From Hyphomicrobiales bacterium (GTDB taxonomy: Bacteria; Pseudomonadota; Alphaproteobacteria; Rhizobiales; NORP267): a DNA stretch of 64,000 nt. The notes beneath the pieces were generated by a model that was not told the origin of the DNA, did no database searches, and worked only from the letters and a program-made list of their open reading frames with translations. The position numbers and the translations under genes were made by a program. Positions 21,851 to 30,891 of this stretch are shown one piece after another (within the stretch, counting starts at the first letter, position 1; each line of letters begins with the position of its first letter). The stretch spans positions 1 through 64,000 of the forward strand of contig JAJFGZ010000040.1 of assembly GCA_021775855.1 (NCBI GenBank). The letters are read 5' to 3'.

Positions 21851-22080
21851 TCGTCTCTCCTGTGCCCGTCATTGTCCCGGATAGAATCCGGGAACGCTTT
21901 TAGGGAATTGGCAATTTCCCGCCTGATTTTCAAAGCGCGCGATACTCGCCCGCGTTGTTCGGTAAGAGATGCGGACAAGGCTTTTGCCTCGCCTGCATCC
22001 ATTAGTCGTTTATCCCTGGCAATCTCAGTCAGTCCGGCTGCTATCTGCAAAACCAGTTTGAGAATTGCTAGCCAGTTCAT
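21847..22080 (-). CDS. Small phage protein, possible inner spanin (Rz-like)
   Basis: 77 residues. A short N-terminal hydrophobic helix (MNWLAILKLVLQIAAGL) is followed by a charged, helix-prone region (RDKRLMDAGEAKALSASLTE and onward). It overlaps the holin-like gene upstream and the Rz1-like gene downstream, each by 4 bp. The topology suits an inner-membrane spanin subunit; sequence alone does not prove it. Confidence 0.55.
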   Translation of the reverse strand: MNWLAILKLVLQIAAGLTEIARDKRLMDAGEAKALSASLTEQRGRVSRALKIRREIANSLKAFPDSIRDNDGHRRDE

Positions 22081-22259
22081 TCGGCCCGGCCGGCCGCTGT
22101 AGTTGTGACAAATCGCAACCCGATATTAATCGTTCCGGCAACAATGACGGCCATAGTCGGGCTGACATATTCCGTCCAGTCGATCCCGGCCAAGTATGGC
22201 AAGAGCGCTCCGGCGGCTACAATCAGTCCGTTGAAAATAAGTGTCTTGAAACCTTTCAT
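22077..22259 (-). CDS. Holin-like small membrane protein
   Basis: 60 residues with two predicted membrane helices (LIFNGLIVAAGALLPYLAGI and VSPTMAVIVAGTINIGLRF). The N-terminus is short and basic (MKGFK) and the C-terminal tail is charged, as in small phage holins. The ATG at 22259 has a good ribosome-binding site (AGGAACGAG). It would let the endolysin reach the cell wall. An intrinsic terminator lies between it and the endolysin gene, so its expression may depend on read-through. Confidence 0.7.
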   Translation of the reverse strand: MKGFKTLIFNGLIVAAGALLPYLAGIDWTEYVSPTMAVIVAGTINIGLRFVTTTAAGRAE

Positions 22260-22277
22260 GGTCTCGTTCCTTTCATG

Positions 22278-22298
22278 AAAAAACCGCCTCGCGGGCGG
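22278..22298 (-). terminator. Intrinsic terminator-like hairpin between endolysin and holin genes
   Basis: Read on the minus strand: CCGCC, loop CGCGA, GGCGG, then TTTTTT. A GC-only 5-bp stem followed by six T residues is a textbook intrinsic terminator. It lies 28 bp after the endolysin stop and 19 bp before the holin start. Confidence 0.75.
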
Positions 22299-22326
22299 CA
22301 GGGGAATTGGCTGGAGGTGTTTCGGG

Positions 22327-22962
22327 TTATTTGAAAAAATGCTTGAGCATCTCGAAGATCGCACGAAGGAGCTTGTAAGACGGCCCCGGTGTTGCATTTT
22401 TTGCAACGGACTGGCCATCTGTCGGATCGTCGGGTTGCGGCGCTTTGACGATGTTCACCAGCCCAACGGCGTCCCGTTTGACTTCATTGACCCGCCGGGT
22501 CCAGCCCCTGCCAAAAGTGGAAAATGTCCGCAAGCCCTCCAGCCATGCGAACCGATTGTCGCAAAGCCCGATGATGATCCTGTCCGGGCTCATGGAATGG
22601 ATTGCTGTCAGGGTATCCGGGCCGATCTTCCCGTCTACGGATACGCCCAGCAATCGCTGCAGGAATTTCGCGGCACGACTTGGCCCGCTATTTACTGCAA
22701 AATCGAATACGGCATAGTCCACTCCGGACGGCAGATCGTCACCACGAACCTTGTGCCAATATTGTTTTCTGTAGACCTCTGCGACCTGGGCATCGGTGAT
22801 GTTCCTGAGGTTTTCGACGGTGCCGTTCCGCTTTACGTATCGCCGAAACGTGGCGATGGTAATTCCCTTGTTTGTTGCCCCGCCTGGGTCGCGCGGGTGG
22901 TTGCTGAACCCGCCTTCGTGCGTCAGGACGCGGGATAACGATTGTTCGAAATTGGTTCTCAT
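22327..22962 (-). CDS. GH108-family endolysin (N-acetylmuramidase)
   Basis: 211 residues. The N-terminal glycoside hydrolase 108 domain contains the catalytic Glu16 in the signature THEGGFSNHPRDPGGATNKG. The second domain (about 95-165) is the peptidoglycan-binding domain that follows in this family (LGVSVDGKIGPDTL). The C-terminal 45 residues are a linker and an amphipathic helix (LLRAIFEMLKHFFK). There is no signal peptide, so export needs the nearby holin. It degrades the cell wall to release particles or cell contents. Confidence 0.92.
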   Translation of the reverse strand: MRTNFEQSLSRVLTHEGGFSNHPRDPGGATNKGITIATFRRYVKRNGTVENLRNITDAQVAEVYRKQYWHKVRGDDLPSGVDYAVFDFAVNSGPSRAAKFLQRLLGVSVDGKIGPDTLTAIHSMSPDRIIIGLCDNRFAWLEGLRTFSTFGRGWTRRVNEVKRDAVGLVNIVKAPQPDDPTDGQSVAKNATPGPSYKLLRAIFEMLKHFFK

Positions 22963-23385: not shown

Positions 23386-26300
23386 TCAAACATTGATGGT
23401 TGCATTGAGCGGGAAGCCCCGGCCGATCGTTTCGCCCAACTGATGCAAGGCAATATCAAATGTCACGGGCAAGGATCCCCAATCCAGGGTCTGGTCGGAT
23501 TCGCTATATACGGCTGCGGCTGAAGTCACAGAAATCGTACGGAGCACCGTGCCTGCATTGAGGACATCCAGCTCGTAGCGCTCGTTTACTTCGCCAAGGG
23601 GGATTTCGATCTGCTCCCAACCGTCGGCGGATATCCGTCCCCGCCGGATCCATGAAAACACGATATCGTTGCCATTGCGCCGGGCCTCTAGATGGACCGG
23701 GCTCAGCGGCATTTGCGCCGTTACTCCACCAGCAAAATCAACCTCACCGTAACTGGCGGCATCTGGGGACTGGCTTGCCGGGCCATAACGATATGTCAAA
23801 GACGTCCCAATATCGCCGGGATCGATCTCGAAATCTGATACCGCGCCGTCGAGCAAAATAAATCTCGCACCAGGCGCCAGCATCGCCTGCATGACGCCAT
23901 CCGAGCCATCGATTCCCCGCAGGAGATTCTTCAACTCGAAGGTATCGGTGCCGATCAATTCGGCGGCGGTGAACTGGATCAATTCAAAAGGTCCACCGTC
24001 CGGACCGACCGCCGCCAGATTGACGCCAGAAAGGACATCGATTTCGGTTGCCGGCGAGAGCCCGCCGTTGGACATGACGACCCGCAATGCGTTGCCGCGA
24101 TCCCACCTGTTGGATGGGCCGGACGGCAGGATATCCGCTGTAAGACCCATTGCTGCAGGCGCGCCAATGATATTCACGAGCTTTAGAGACGTCACCGAGC
24201 GGGAATTGTAGACCGCGATGCTCCCTGGCCATGGGTCAGCGGCACCCGCTATTTTGACCCCTTCGCCATCATTGGCTCCACTCAGAACTGATAGATCAAG
24301 GAACGCGATATCAGGGATCCCGAAAACCGGACTGGTTGTAGGAATTGCGGTCCTCTGTACAGCGGGTCCGGGCGCGTAGACCGCCGGCTCTACCGAACGC
24401 GCCTCAATTTCGAGAAATTCGCCGGTGCGAATTTCACCGATCCGCAACACCGTCGACCCGGTTCCGCTGGCGATCTGTATATTATCACCTACTTCGAATG
24501 CCAGGCGCGATGGCGGCAGGGAAAATTGCCCCTGCTCGCGGCCTGACCAGATATCCTGGAGCCAGATATCGGCCATCTGCTGGGCGCGCTCATACGGAAT
24601 AACGATTGGCACGGTCGCTGACGCATCGCGCCTGCTCAAACCCACGAGCCGTCGCGATTCAACTGCTGATTGGCGATAATCGGCCACCGAATCGATATGC
24701 GCGAGTTGAACTGAGACGGGCAACTCGCTTTCCTGGGCACGAACCAGACTGAGGCTCTTGCCGCTCTGCGAAGGGACCAGGTCATCATCCGTCAGGTTGG
24801 CCGCGATGTCGCCGTCGCGCTGGGCAAACCTGATTATTCCATCGCTTTCCAGCGCGTCAAAGAAATAGGCCAAGCTCAACGGTTCCAGCGCCTGGCGGGC
24901 GGACATCACCCGATCGATGACAAAACCGTCGGCGATGCCGAGCAACCCCTCAGAATTGAAATCGGTAAACCCGTAATCCATCAGGATGGCGGCGACCAGG
25001 CGGTCGAGCGGTGCCGAGCCCATCCGCCCGTTGATCCAGTGCCCACGCTCCCAATTTGGGCCGTCGGCCCAGACCGAAGTGAGTTGCGGGAAATACGGAA
25101 ACGGACGCGCGTCCCAAGTCCAGATATTGGTCGAATTGGTCTCGATCATCGTCGCGCCGTAAACCGACGAAACGGGGTTGCTGCCCGCCGCATGATCCGG
25201 GTCGGTTGTGTCCCAGAAAGAAAATAGCGCCTCGATATAGCGGCGCTGGATTAGATCATCCCGGATCGTCGAAGAATAATAGGGAAACGCGCTCGACGAC
25301 GATTTCGCGTCAAAAAAAACGTTCGGCTGGTTGGTGCCCTTGTCGATGGCCGGGCACCCGGCCTCAGTAAATACGATCGGCTTCGATTGGGGCGACCAGG
25401 CGGTCGGGGATGAAGATTCGACACCGCCGGGGCGATCATAGTGTGCGTTAAGCCACCAGGATTTTATATCCTTGTAGCGGAATACCCAGGGCTTCAGATA
25501 TGTGCCGTCTGTAATCGCGGTACGTGTCTGGTTGTCGCGATCGCTCAGGGACGCGTAGAACCAGTCGTACCCCTCGCCGCTGGCAACATTGGCGCGCAGG
25601 TAATCCAGATCGTAGATGTGGGGCACACCCGCAACCCGGTCGAGATGGCCCGACCCGTCGCGCCAGTCGGATTGCGGCATGTAATTGTCGATCCCGACAA
25701 AGTCGACATTTCCGCTCGACCAGAGCGGGTCGAGGTGAAAAAAGACGTCGCCGGTACCATCCTGGGGGTGGTGGCCGAAATATTCTGACCAATCGGCAGC
25801 GTATGAGACGCGTGTTGCGGAGCCGAGAATGGCCTTCACGTCGCCCGCCAGCGATACCATCTGGGACACGCCCGGATAGGTATTGGCGCTGCTGCGGACA
25901 GTCAACAATTCGCGGAGTTCCGACCCGATCAGGAACGTATCGACGCCGCTGGCCTGGGCGCAAAGATGGGCATAGTGCAGCACCAACCGCCGGAGCGACC
26001 ATTCTGTTGATCCGGTATAAGTTACGCTGCTGGATGTAACCGCGAAATCCGACGGTTGGGCATCGCCAAAGAATGCGTTGATCTGGCTCGTGGCCGTAGG
26101 TGTTTTGTCGACTGTTCCAGCAACCCCCGGCGCGGGGTCGCAGGTGATGGTCCCGCGCCACGGATAAACCGGCTGTCCGGTGGACCCCGTATATGGGTCG
26201 GAAAGGCTATTGCCGATCGGGATATCCATCATCAAGAACGGATAGAACATCACTTTCAGACCGCGCGCCTTGAGATTGGCGATCGCGGCCAAAACCGACG

Positions 26301-27312
26301 CATCGGAGGGTGTCCCGCCAAAGGCCGCCTTGCCAGCAAATTGACTGACCAGGTGCGCCCCGCCGCGACTGACGCCATCAACCAGCCAGGTGTCGCCGGT
26401 TGTGAATTTTGCTGGAGCATCGACGCCCGGTCTCAACTGGTTCTGCCCGCAGCGCAGATCGCTGCCGAACCAGGCGACCACCAGCGCTACGGTCTCCAGA
26501 TTGGGACAGGCCGCCTGTAAATCATCGATCGCGGCATTCCAATCGGTGACGCCGCGCCCGGAAATGGAATTTTCACTCTCGGACTTTCCAGGCCCGGTTG
26601 TGCGCAAAACCTCGGCGGTGTGGTAGCCGAATTCAGTTGTTCCCGGAATCACCGTGACTGCGCGGATGCGTTCTTCCAGATCGTCGACGGCACGAAAAAC
26701 CTCGATCGCCAATTGCGGGATCCGGTTGCCGAACGGTTCCAGCGGCATCCTGTCGAACACGATATAGGCGAGGCCTCGATAGGCAGGCGCGTTCCCGGAC
26801 CCCTCTTTGGCAGCGATCAGGGAATCCGGCTGCTGTGTTTCCGACCCGTTATGGACGCGGTATACGACATTGCGGATATCCAGCAACTTGCCATCTGCCC
26901 AGATCCGTCCGACCCTATTGATCCGGCCCTCGCACAACCCGACGGCAAAATTTGCGTAATAGAAATACGTAGTCGTCTCGGTGACCTGGCCGGACCTGCC
27001 TTTTGAACTTGAGCCAGTACGCGTAGTTTCGGTGCGGATTTCTTCCTCGAAGCGGGTCGCCCAGATGATTTCACCGGTTAGCCGGGCACGACCATATAGC
27101 TTCGGTATTGGCGAACCTTCGCTCGATGATTGAACACCCAGATCGGAGAGCCGTGGACCCTCGACTGAACGAGCTGACCCGAGCCGTGACAATAAGCTCT
27201 GATCGATCAGGTTGCCTGCGATTGCGCCAACTGCGCGACCAACAATACTGCCAACTGGACCGAGCAGCCCTCCGGCCGCCTGCCCGGCGGCTTGCAAGAT
27301 GAGTGTGGCCAT
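23386..27312 (-). CDS. GTA baseplate multidomain protein (megatron, TIM-barrel-like)
   Basis: 1308 residues, equivalent to gp15 of the Rhodobacter gene transfer agent. The N-terminal membrane-active-looking glycine/alanine region (AAGQAAGGLLGPVGSIVGRA) is followed by tail-protein domains. The glycoside-hydrolase TIM-barrel-like region includes FYPFLMMDIPIGNS, AADWSEYFGHHPQDG, VDFVGIDNYMPQSDWR and PIVFTEAGCPAIDKGTNQ. C-terminal phage-tail beta domains complete the protein. It forms the tail tip that contacts and penetrates the recipient envelope. Its stop is the end of the structural operon; the start is 3 bp after the NlpC/P60 gene. Length is usual for the family. Confidence 0.93.
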   Translation of the reverse strand: MATLILQAAGQAAGGLLGPVGSIVGRAVGAIAGNLIDQSLLSRLGSARSVEGPRLSDLGVQSSSEGSPIPKLYGRARLTGEIIWATRFEEEIRTETTRTGSSSKGRSGQVTETTTYFYYANFAVGLCEGRINRVGRIWADGKLLDIRNVVYRVHNGSETQQPDSLIAAKEGSGNAPAYRGLAYIVFDRMPLEPFGNRIPQLAIEVFRAVDDLEERIRAVTVIPGTTEFGYHTAEVLRTTGPGKSESENSISGRGVTDWNAAIDDLQAACPNLETVALVVAWFGSDLRCGQNQLRPGVDAPAKFTTGDTWLVDGVSRGGAHLVSQFAGKAAFGGTPSDASVLAAIANLKARGLKVMFYPFLMMDIPIGNSLSDPYTGSTGQPVYPWRGTITCDPAPGVAGTVDKTPTATSQINAFFGDAQPSDFAVTSSSVTYTGSTEWSLRRLVLHYAHLCAQASGVDTFLIGSELRELLTVRSSANTYPGVSQMVSLAGDVKAILGSATRVSYAADWSEYFGHHPQDGTGDVFFHLDPLWSSGNVDFVGIDNYMPQSDWRDGSGHLDRVAGVPHIYDLDYLRANVASGEGYDWFYASLSDRDNQTRTAITDGTYLKPWVFRYKDIKSWWLNAHYDRPGGVESSSPTAWSPQSKPIVFTEAGCPAIDKGTNQPNVFFDAKSSSSAFPYYSSTIRDDLIQRRYIEALFSFWDTTDPDHAAGSNPVSSVYGATMIETNSTNIWTWDARPFPYFPQLTSVWADGPNWERGHWINGRMGSAPLDRLVAAILMDYGFTDFNSEGLLGIADGFVIDRVMSARQALEPLSLAYFFDALESDGIIRFAQRDGDIAANLTDDDLVPSQSGKSLSLVRAQESELPVSVQLAHIDSVADYRQSAVESRRLVGLSRRDASATVPIVIPYERAQQMADIWLQDIWSGREQGQFSLPPSRLAFEVGDNIQIASGTGSTVLRIGEIRTGEFLEIEARSVEPAVYAPGPAVQRTAIPTTSPVFGIPDIAFLDLSVLSGANDGEGVKIAGAADPWPGSIAVYNSRSVTSLKLVNIIGAPAAMGLTADILPSGPSNRWDRGNALRVVMSNGGLSPATEIDVLSGVNLAAVGPDGGPFELIQFTAAELIGTDTFELKNLLRGIDGSDGVMQAMLAPGARFILLDGAVSDFEIDPGDIGTSLTYRYGPASQSPDAASYGEVDFAGGVTAQMPLSPVHLEARRNGNDIVFSWIRRGRISADGWEQIEIPLGEVNERYELDVLNAGTVLRTISVTSAAAVYSESDQTLDWGSLPVTFDIALHQLGETIGRGFPLNATINV

Positions 27313-29284: not shown

Positions 29285-29866
29285 TTATAAATTGCGCTGG
29301 CCGCGCGAGACGGCGCGGTTGACCATGGCGGCGATCTGGGTTTCCGAGCGGCGGAAACTGTCGGCGTCGGTCGCGGTTACGTTGAAATTTATGGTGGTGG
29401 CTCCACCCGCCTCAGCCGTGCGTACGCCGAGCCGCCCGTCGCGTCCCCGCGCCAACGGGAGGATGGCTTCGGGCCCGGCTTCGCCTGCCAGCCCGGTCGC
29501 GCGGCCGCCAAGTGGAAACAGAGTCGGGCTTGCGACAATCCCGCCGCGGGCAAACGGTGTTTGCATGGGGGCACCGATCACGCCGCCATTGGCGAAAGGC
29601 AGGATGCGCTGAAACAACGACCCGATGCCGCCGGACAGGCCATCCTGCAACGGTTTCAGCGCCGCATTCAGCGCCAGCCGGCTGAGGCTTTGGCCGAGCG
29701 ATTGCAGCACAGATTTGAAGCCGCGCCCGCTTGTCGCGGCAGACGTCAGTGCGCCGGTCATGGCGCGCCCGAAATCCTCGGCCAGGCCACCGATCTGGTT
29801 CAGTTCTGCACGAAACGACGACGCGTCAGCTGAAATGCTGACCTCAAGACTTTCATCAAATCGCAT
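29285..29866 (-). CDS. GTA tail tape measure protein (short)
   Basis: 193 residues, equivalent to RcGTA gp11. The N-terminal helical part (LNQIGGLAEDFGRAMTGAL, then a TSAATSGRGFKSVLQSLGQS segment) and the Gly-rich central stretch (FANGGVIGAPMQTPFARGG) are typical of tape measure proteins. The C-terminus carries GEAGPEAILPL, common in this family. The short length predicts a short tail, as in GTAs. It follows the frameshifted chaperone by 28 bp. Confidence 0.88.
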   Translation of the reverse strand: MRFDESLEVSISADASSFRAELNQIGGLAEDFGRAMTGALTSAATSGRGFKSVLQSLGQSLSRLALNAALKPLQDGLSGGIGSLFQRILPFANGGVIGAPMQTPFARGGIVASPTLFPLGGRATGLAGEAGPEAILPLARGRDGRLGVRTAEAGGATTINFNVTATDADSFRRSETQIAAMVNRAVSRGQRNL

Positions 29867-29894: not shown

Positions 29895-30104
29895 TCAAAC
29901 CTGATCCGGAAACCGGGCCATCAAGGTGTGTAGTTTTAGGGCGTCCAGGGTCGTGCCGGCGTAGTTGCCAAATCCAGCAGCCGCAGAGAGTTCGCGGGGC
30001 GTCATGGCCCAAAGATCGCGTGGCGCAAGGCCAAGCTCGCCGATCCCGAAGGCCATGACCTCGGCCCAGGAAATGCCTGGCGCAGGTTCGGAATTGGAGG
30101 CTAC
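29895..30104 (-). CDS. Second GTA tail assembly chaperone (reached by predicted -1 frameshift)
   Basis: About 69 codons ending MARFPDQV. The family is the small GTA/phage tail chaperone that lies between gp10 and the tape measure gene (TIGR02216 type). Its landmarks are ISWAEVMAFGIGELGLAPRD and LWAMTPRELSAA. There is no ATG, GTG or TTG at a sensible place: the only in-frame ones are a TTG at 30257, deep inside gp10, and an ATG at 30056, which would cut off the conserved ISWAEV. The frame is entered naturally from gp10 by a -1 shift at GGGAAAG (30104-30110), so the coordinates given begin at the first codon (GTA) after the shift. An atypical start such as ATT at 30074 is the alternative. Confidence 0.8.
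   Translation of the reverse strand, partial: VASNSEPAPGISWAEVMAFGIGELGLAPRDLWAMTPRELSAAAGFGNYAGTTLDALKLHTLMARFPDQV
30066..30080 (-). other. Small hairpin downstream of the frameshift site
   Basis: Perfect 5-bp inverted repeat CCAGG/CCTGG with a 5-base loop, starting 23 bases after the slippery heptamer on the minus strand. It may stimulate the shift, but the spacing is longer than usual for -1 frameshift stimulators. Confidence 0.35.
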
Positions 30105-30475
30105 TTTCCCGGCAGACGGGCCTCCGGCGCGGTTGATGTGTCGCCGGCAGCCGAAAAAGTCGCGGTCAGCAACCGGGCGACGATGGCAACAAACCCTGCT
30201 GCCCCGCCTTCGACCCGCATCGCGGCGACATCTTCGTTGGCCACGTCGTGACCGCAAGCGCGCAACCCCGCCCCGAGCACCGCAATCGCCTCAGACGATT
30301 TCATCCGCCCATTCTCAAACCGCGTCGCCAGCGCCATCAGATCATCGGCAGCGAATACGCCTTCAAGCTCGGCCAACGCGCCCAGCGTCAGGCACAGGCA
30401 ATAAGGCTCGCCGTCCAGCGTGGCGGCAATCTCACCGCGCACGGGATTAGGGAGGACATGACTAATCGATCCCAT
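30101..30475 (-). CDS. GTA gp10-type tail chaperone
   Basis: 124 residues, the GTA-gp10 family (a phage tail assembly chaperone type). Landmarks: VRGEIAATLDGEPYCLCLTL, then LGALAELEGVFAADDLMALA and GAGLRACGHDV. In long-tailed phages the chaperone in this position binds the tape measure protein and is made in a short and a longer, frameshifted form. The last codons are CCG GGA AAG followed by TAG, which places the slippery heptamer G-GGA-AAG directly on the stop. The gene starts 2 bp after the tail tube gene stop. Confidence 0.9.
   Translation of the reverse strand: MGSISHVLPNPVRGEIAATLDGEPYCLCLTLGALAELEGVFAADDLMALATRFENGRMKSSEAIAVLGAGLRACGHDVANEDVAAMRVEGGAAGFVAIVARLLTATFSAAGDTSTAPEARLPGK
30104..30110 (-). 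promoter_or_regulatory. Slippery heptamer GGGAAAG for -1 ribosomal frameshifting
   Basis: In the gp10 frame the codons are CCG GGA AAG TAG. The last G of CCG plus GGA and AAG give X XXY YYZ = G GGA AAG. A simultaneous -1 slip pairs the two tRNAs with GGG and AAA, and the next codon is GTA in the frame of the second chaperone. GGGAAAG is the same heptamer used by the lambda G/GT tail genes, which encode chaperones at the same genome position. Confidence 0.8.
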
Positions 30476-30477
30476 CT

Positions 30478-30891
30478 CTAGGCCGCCACAAACGTAATCT
30501 CGCCCGCCGATTCCAAGCTCATATCGAACGTCACCTCGCCGTCATGCTCGCCGGAAAATTCTAACGCGGCTATCTGGAACAGGCCTTGGATGGCACCGAA
30601 ATCCGGGATGATGACCTGCCAGTCGCGGATGGTACCGTTGAAGAAATAACCGCGCACGGTCTCATCCGACGCCTGGTCGCGGAAGATGCCAGAACCTGAC
30701 AGGGCTGCGCGGCGCACGCCAGCGCCAGCCAGCAATTCGCGCCATTGACCAGCAGACTCAGCGTGGGTGATATCGACGCTCTCGGCGTTAAACGAAATCG
30801 CGCGGGCGCGCAGGCCCGCAATCGTGGTGAATGTCCCGACCCCGTCGGAATCGACCTTGAGGAGCAGGTCCTTGCCTTTTTGCGCTGCCAT
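30478..30891 (-). CDS. GTA major tail tube protein (gp9, TP901-1 family)
   Basis: 137 residues. Family landmarks are the N-terminal QKGKDLLLKVDSDGVGTFTT, VDITHAESAGQWRELL, and the C-terminal FDMSLESAGEITF. It polymerises into the tail tube. It lies directly before the chaperone genes and is encoded in the canonical GTA order. Confidence 0.93.
   Translation of the reverse strand: MAAQKGKDLLLKVDSDGVGTFTTIAGLRARAISFNAESVDITHAESAGQWRELLAGAGVRRAALSGSGIFRDQASDETVRGYFFNGTIRDWQVIIPDFGAIQGLFQIAALEFSGEHDGEVTFDMSLESAGEITFVAA

Follow-up and report, generated by a model that had tools for sequence, protein, structure and literature searches.

A head-tail gene cluster lies within the window, by which we mean the whole 64,000-nucleotide stretch analyzed here. 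The cluster is of the type of RcGTA, the gene transfer agent (GTA, a domesticated virus that transports DNA of its host from cell to cell) of Rhodobacter capsulatus, as judged by gene set and order: a megatron, a baseplate hub, an NlpC/P60 peptidase, a short tape measure, an HK97-type capsid, a portal and a prohead protease are found in the RcGTA order, and all neighboring head-tail genes with a family match look intact. Profile and structure matches place the pair of tail chaperones between the major tail protein and the tape measure (Table 1). Directly downstream of the megatron gene, and on the same strand, is a glycosyl hydrolase 108 / N-acetylmuramidase-like gene (22327-22962, minus strand; PF05838), for which an NCBIfam holin-associated muramidase match falls below its cut-off. 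A small ORF that includes a hydrophobic stretch (22077-22418) comes next, and the two possibly constitute a lysis module adjoining the GTA cluster.

Table 1. The chaperone junction and its neighbors in the GTA-like cluster (positions in the window)
Feature	Position	Strand	Evidence
gp10, tail assembly chaperone 1, short form, 124 aa + TAG	30101..30475	-	PF11836 Phage_TAC_11, 93.9 bits (cut-off 27.8)
Slippery heptamer G GGA AAG, touching the gp10 stop TAG (30103-30101)	30104..30110	-	sequence
Tail assembly chaperone 2 (gp10.1), -1 frame, C-terminal 69 residues of the predicted 193-aa fusion	29895..30104	-	PF09550 Phage_TAC_6, 66.2 bits (cut-off 23.4)
I-S-W motif, N-terminal, conserved (F-P-W in relatives), upstream of any usable start codon	30066..30074	-	
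GGAGG, inferred Shine-Dalgarno-like stimulator, 10 nt upstream of the heptamer	30121..30125	-	anti-SD duplex -9.5 kcal/mol
gp9, major tail protein	30478..30891	-	PF06199, TIGR02126; closest solved chain RcGTA Rcc01691, 6tba
gp11, short tape measure protein	29285..29866	-	NF058675 RcGTA_tape, 171.7 bits, below cut-off 220
gp15 "megatron", marks the cluster as RcGTA-like	23386..27312	-	NF048004, 1748.6 bits (cut-off 800); PF13547 GTA_TIM

The last codons of gp10 read CCG GGA AAG TAG on the minus strand, the heptamer abutting the stop codon as the initial annotation had described, and the 17 head-tail ORFs, with 4,772 in-phase codon positions, contain no other G_GGA_AAG. From the heptamer, the -1 frame remains open through to the TGA at 29897-29895, comprising 69 residues counted from GTA 30104. 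The earlier assignment of this stop-free frame to a second tail chaperone is confirmed by the Phage_TAC_6 match, and the protein also matches the TIGR02216 "rcc01693 family" (50.5 bits, slightly below the cut-off of 56.1). Between the heptamer and the I-S-W motif, which begins with ATT 30074, the window holds no ATG, GTG or TTG in this frame. The nearest candidates are ATG 30056, within ISWAEVM, and TTG 30257, upstream and inside gp10, and the claim that no such codon would preserve the ISWAEV segment stands. Likewise, the predicted products, a 124-residue short form and a 193-residue fusion, agree in length with our reading of the frames. The GGAGG exactly 10 nt before the heptamer had gone unmentioned. 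The AlphaFold2 model of gp10 exhibits a confident core up to residue ~108, followed by a low-confidence tail. Proteins bearing the name tail assembly chaperone are among its best matches in BFVD, with modest E-values (about 2.5e-3 to 2e-2). The fold search of the PDB with gp10 returned no significant match, and a plasmid search, as well as a first viral scan with gp10, returned none.

Comparison within the genus involved the window and two other genomes carrying the cluster (congeners), both of which keep GGGAAAG-TA and lack the start codon. The DNA of the gp10 3' end is variable in the genus, yet CCGCGCCGGAGGC and GCCGGGAAAGTA are its longest invariant blocks; conservation in this region peaks in two DNA blocks, the GGAGG, which is part of an invariant 13-nt block, and GGGAAAG-TA. 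In neither congener does the -1 frame stay open beyond 40 nt upstream of the gp10 stop; the internal TTG therefore has no counterpart there, which disposes of a start at TTG 30257. Downstream of the heptamer, the -1 frame is intact and conserved across the three species.

Very probably, as its initial annotation had proposed, the junction is read by a -1 frameshift at G_GGA_AAG that joins chaperone 1 to chaperone 2 in this GTA cluster; the comparative tests described below fit a -1 shift and fit the alternatives badly. Most ribosomes would end at TAG 30103 and release the 124-residue chaperone 1, while a minority, aided by pairing of the GGAGG with 16S rRNA, would slip back by one base at the heptamer, land on GGG AAA and continue in the -1 frame to produce the 193-residue chaperone 1-chaperone 2 fusion. 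If the roles established for lambda carry over, the short form would cover the tape measure protein, and the fusion would bring in the major tail protein through its additional domain. The occurrence of slippage, its efficiency and the roles of the two products in assembly are what we infer from this arrangement. Two other routes into chaperone 2 were set aside at once: stop-codon readthrough would stay in the gp10 frame, not that of chaperone 2, and transcriptional slippage needs long homopolymers, the site offering only GGG and AAA.

Junctions were collected from whole genomes of the order (with Hyphomicrobiales as its named members) and of the class, from named genomes, from IMG/VR and from one phage record, and 331 distinct gp10/chaperone 2 junctions were analyzed. 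Chaperone 2 lies in the -1 frame in 303 of them and in another frame in 28. Of the 303 -1-frame loci, 107 have no start codon anywhere from the gp10 core to F-P-W, as compared with 2 of the 28 other-frame loci (p=0.0014), and this tie of missing starts to the -1 frame disfavors odd start codons or poorly drawn boundaries, since the other frames should then lack starts too. The Trp of F-P-W is conserved in 106/107 no-start loci and in 186/193 start loci, so that the stretch preceding any start is evidently translated, whereas in conservation of the Met further downstream the former (76/107) exceed the latter (128/193) only slightly. Taken together, these two counts argue against reinitiation at the Met and for entry in the -1 frame from upstream. 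Reinitiation by ribosomes that have terminated at TAG, either at ATG 30056 or at another Met or Val of I-S-W-x-x-V-M, to give a shortened, free chaperone 2 is thus improbable. The ATG does lie 47 nt past the stop with a GAGG near it, the gp10 stop overlaps GTGATG in some relatives, and two annotated records begin chaperone 2 at the corresponding Met, but such a product would lose F/I-P/S-W, in which the Trp is preserved just as it is where a genuine start lies upstream, and the heptamers and SD-like elements would be left unexplained.

Initiation at a non-canonical codon, either ATT 30074 or one further upstream, guided by the GGAGG, could draw on a good SD-like sequence, ATT being a rare bacterial start codon. 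We hold it to be very improbable: 46 nt separate the GGAGG from ATT 30074, the codon at that position is ATA in both congeners and TTT or TTC (Phe) in most families, and starts are present in 26/28 other-frame loci, where common odd starts would predict their absence. Lastly, GTAs are domesticated and some clusters decay, but the chance that chaperone 2 is decayed or dispensable in the window and not made, with a heptamer arisen by accident, is very small given the intact, conserved -1 frame, its 66 bits to Phage_TAC_6 and the apparently intact neighboring head-tail genes with a family match.

Returning to the -1 frameshift, the distance between the cores of the two chaperones has a median of 71 nt in no-start loci vs 17 nt in loci with an ATGA overlap (ATGA loci), which is the expectation for a tethered fusion. 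In the 23 loci with TTG at the gp10 stop, the spacers are long as well (median 80 nt) and seven contain heptamers; many overlapping TTG starts are therefore probably due to chance, and the no-start count is conservative. The locus of Pseudochelatococcus lubricantis (L251) may represent a permanent gene fusion: no change of frame separates gp10 from chaperone 2, and a single open frame contains the chaperone 2 core.

In-phase heptamers before F-P-W in no-start loci were compared with codon-shuffled linkers. GGGAAAG occurs in 13 no-start loci (codon-shuffle mean 0.5, maximum 3), AAACCCN in 14 (mean 0.7, maximum 3) and CCCTTTN in 21 (mean 0.6, maximum 3), GGGAAAG alone having been predicted beforehand, and AAACCC and CCCTTT chosen after seeing the data. 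A strong in-phase heptamer (GGGAAAG, AAACCCT or CCCTTTC/G) is present in 53/107 no-start loci vs 0/108 ATGA loci, a further 24 no-start loci have C_CCT only, and the heptamers of most start-less relatives are other than that of lambda; the layout found in the window recurs, with other heptamers, in many families. CCCTTTC at F-P-W was set aside as independent evidence because CCC TTT CCC TGG encodes P-F-P-W in the -1 frame, and was used only for comparing loci with and without another site. Where gp10 overlaps F-P-W, CCC TTT is found there in 28/38 loci without another heptamer vs 3/17 loci with one (p=2.5e-4), as if every junction needed one slip site. On a FastTree phylogeny of 271 loci, the minimum numbers of changes are 10 for GGGAAAG, 15 for AAACCC and 9 for CCCTTT, and the no-start vs ATG-start states require 17 changes as compared with 54-60 for shuffled labels. 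The strictly supported branches yield five independent pairs, in all of which the heptamer is agreeing or neutral, too few for significance. The tree was used for lineage counts in place of single-linkage clustering, which had chained 304 loci into one cluster.

Several junctions display particular arrangements. In one locus (L045), the gp10 3' end contains three in-phase copies of GGGAAAG, placed at -76, -64 and -40 relative to the gp10 stop, which look like a short slip site in repeated form. In Ancylobacter polymorphus (L062 / L194), the inter-chaperone linker comprises repeated GGGAGGGCGTCCCGCCCTT units and several candidate slip sites. Six no-start loci of Xanthobacter, Ancylobacter and relatives (L195, L210, L214, L245, L259 and L268) are devoid of a full heptamer and have in common NNC CCT ahead of a Pro-rich run, in many cases preceded by GGGGAG, an arrangement that suggests slippage at a single Pro codon.

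Pairing with the anti-SD was assessed with one locus per family and motif (42 combinations), taking the best duplex 4-16 nt upstream of the slip site. Its mean is -8.6 kcal/mol vs -5.4 kcal/mol in codon shuffles, none of 200 shuffles being as low, and -6 kcal/mol is reached by 83% of loci vs 40% in shuffles. Downstream stimulatory folds or 3' stem-loops were no better than in shuffles (z of 0.06 and 0.21). Among the tRNAs of the genome, tRNA-Lys(CUU) is found besides tRNA-Lys(UUU), and tRNA-Gly(UCC) is not among the 30 tRNA loci read. Slippage at AAG may consequently be weaker than with tRNA-Lys(UUU) alone reading this codon, and its efficiency cannot be guessed from lambda.

The distribution of ordinary starts counts in part against frameshifting, as related GTAs manage without it. 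In the RcGTA family, the Rhodobacteraceae, all 29 readable loci provide chaperone 2 with an ordinary start, mostly an ATGA or GTGA overlapping the gp10 stop; R. capsulatus itself was not identified among these 29, the best tail protein identity being 92%. Overlapping ATGA or GTGA starts also predominate in Rhodopseudomonas, Nitrobacter and Afipia, and Xanthobacter and some Ancylobacter have no chaperone 2 start. Aligning the junction across GTA clusters, as the initial annotation had suggested, therefore gives a divided answer: the heptamer and the missing start are conserved in the genus and similar slip signals are found in many families, but not in the Rhodobacteraceae. As evidence against its prediction, that annotation had named homologues in which chaperone 2 starts normally and a slippery site is missing; these are found in many relatives and not in the lineage of the window. 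Frameshifted chaperones, as far as these junctions indicate, characterize certain lineages rather than GTAs as a whole. It seems fairly likely that alphaproteobacterial GTAs have switched many times between a frameshift fusion and a separate chaperone 2 expressed from an overlapping start, the fusion lineages using an SD-like element with a changing slip site (GGGAAAG, AAACCCT, CCCTTTC/G and perhaps C_CCT alone), including slippage of tRNA-Pro. If so, tail assembly could dispense with the covalent fusion that is regarded as central to it in lambda. The mosaic of fused and separate forms within one homologous gene pair offers a direct test of why tail assembly needs a fusion, and the recurrent cassette of SD-like element and heptamer, with unusual heptamers such as AAACCCT, a natural series for -1 frameshifting in high-GC bacteria.

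It had also been predicted that genome annotations would miss the second chaperone or give it a false start, and the latter is seen in both deposited records with a related junction, AAACCCTTGA (MW091529.1 and MW462191.1), where chaperone 2 is annotated from an internal Met and FPW is cut off. Both also contain an overlapping TTG and hence are not clean no-start cases. MW462191.1 (L414), deposited as a phage and 103 kb long, has its genes in an RcGTA-like order; it probably represents either a contig of bacterial origin or a prophage related to GTAs. If the frameshift is real, the second chaperone would be misannotated or missed in many GTA clusters, and GTA counts relying on complete gene sets may be affected. 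In the passages found, the RcGTA papers refer to g10 as tail chaperone 1 and to g10.1/g10.5 as tail chaperone 2 and make no mention of frameshifting. In the literature searched, we found no description of a frameshift or slippery site for GTA chaperone genes, in line with the initial annotation, which knew of none; that the model GTA family does without a frameshift may be the reason. Frameshifting of tail chaperones is well known in phages, and the window would thus present a known type of frameshift in a setting, the GTA, for which the literature searched has no description.

The slip heptamer of phage lambda, G GGA AAG, is identical to that of the window. As in the window, the lambda G / G-T pair combines a shift in the -1 direction, two chaperone domains encoded between the major tail protein and the tape measure, and a second frame without a start of its own. 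The window differs in its Pfam families (TAC_11/TAC_6), its GTA cluster with a short tape measure and its heptamer abutting the stop; its SD-like element, 10 nt upstream of the heptamer, may be a further difference. The lambda frameshift is proven, with a gpG:gpGT ratio of about 30:1, and a model of its tail chaperones has been described (PMC5009743), whereas the shift in the window is predicted from sequence. The E. coli dnaX signal also has an SD-like stimulator upstream of a -1 heptamer (PMC3711429), but belongs to another gene, with the heptamer A AAA AAG and a 3' hairpin, no unusual fold being found in the window. In the GeneTack survey, an HK97-like cluster groups tail chaperones of bacteria or prophages that undergo programmed frameshifting, at 6-7% in tests (PMC3711429); it is of HK97-type families, unlike the window, and the term gene transfer agent is absent from that paper. 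RcGTA g10 / g10.1 (tail chaperones 1 and 2) matches the window in gene pair, gene order and cluster type, and its family differs in the ordinary chaperone 2 start at every readable locus.
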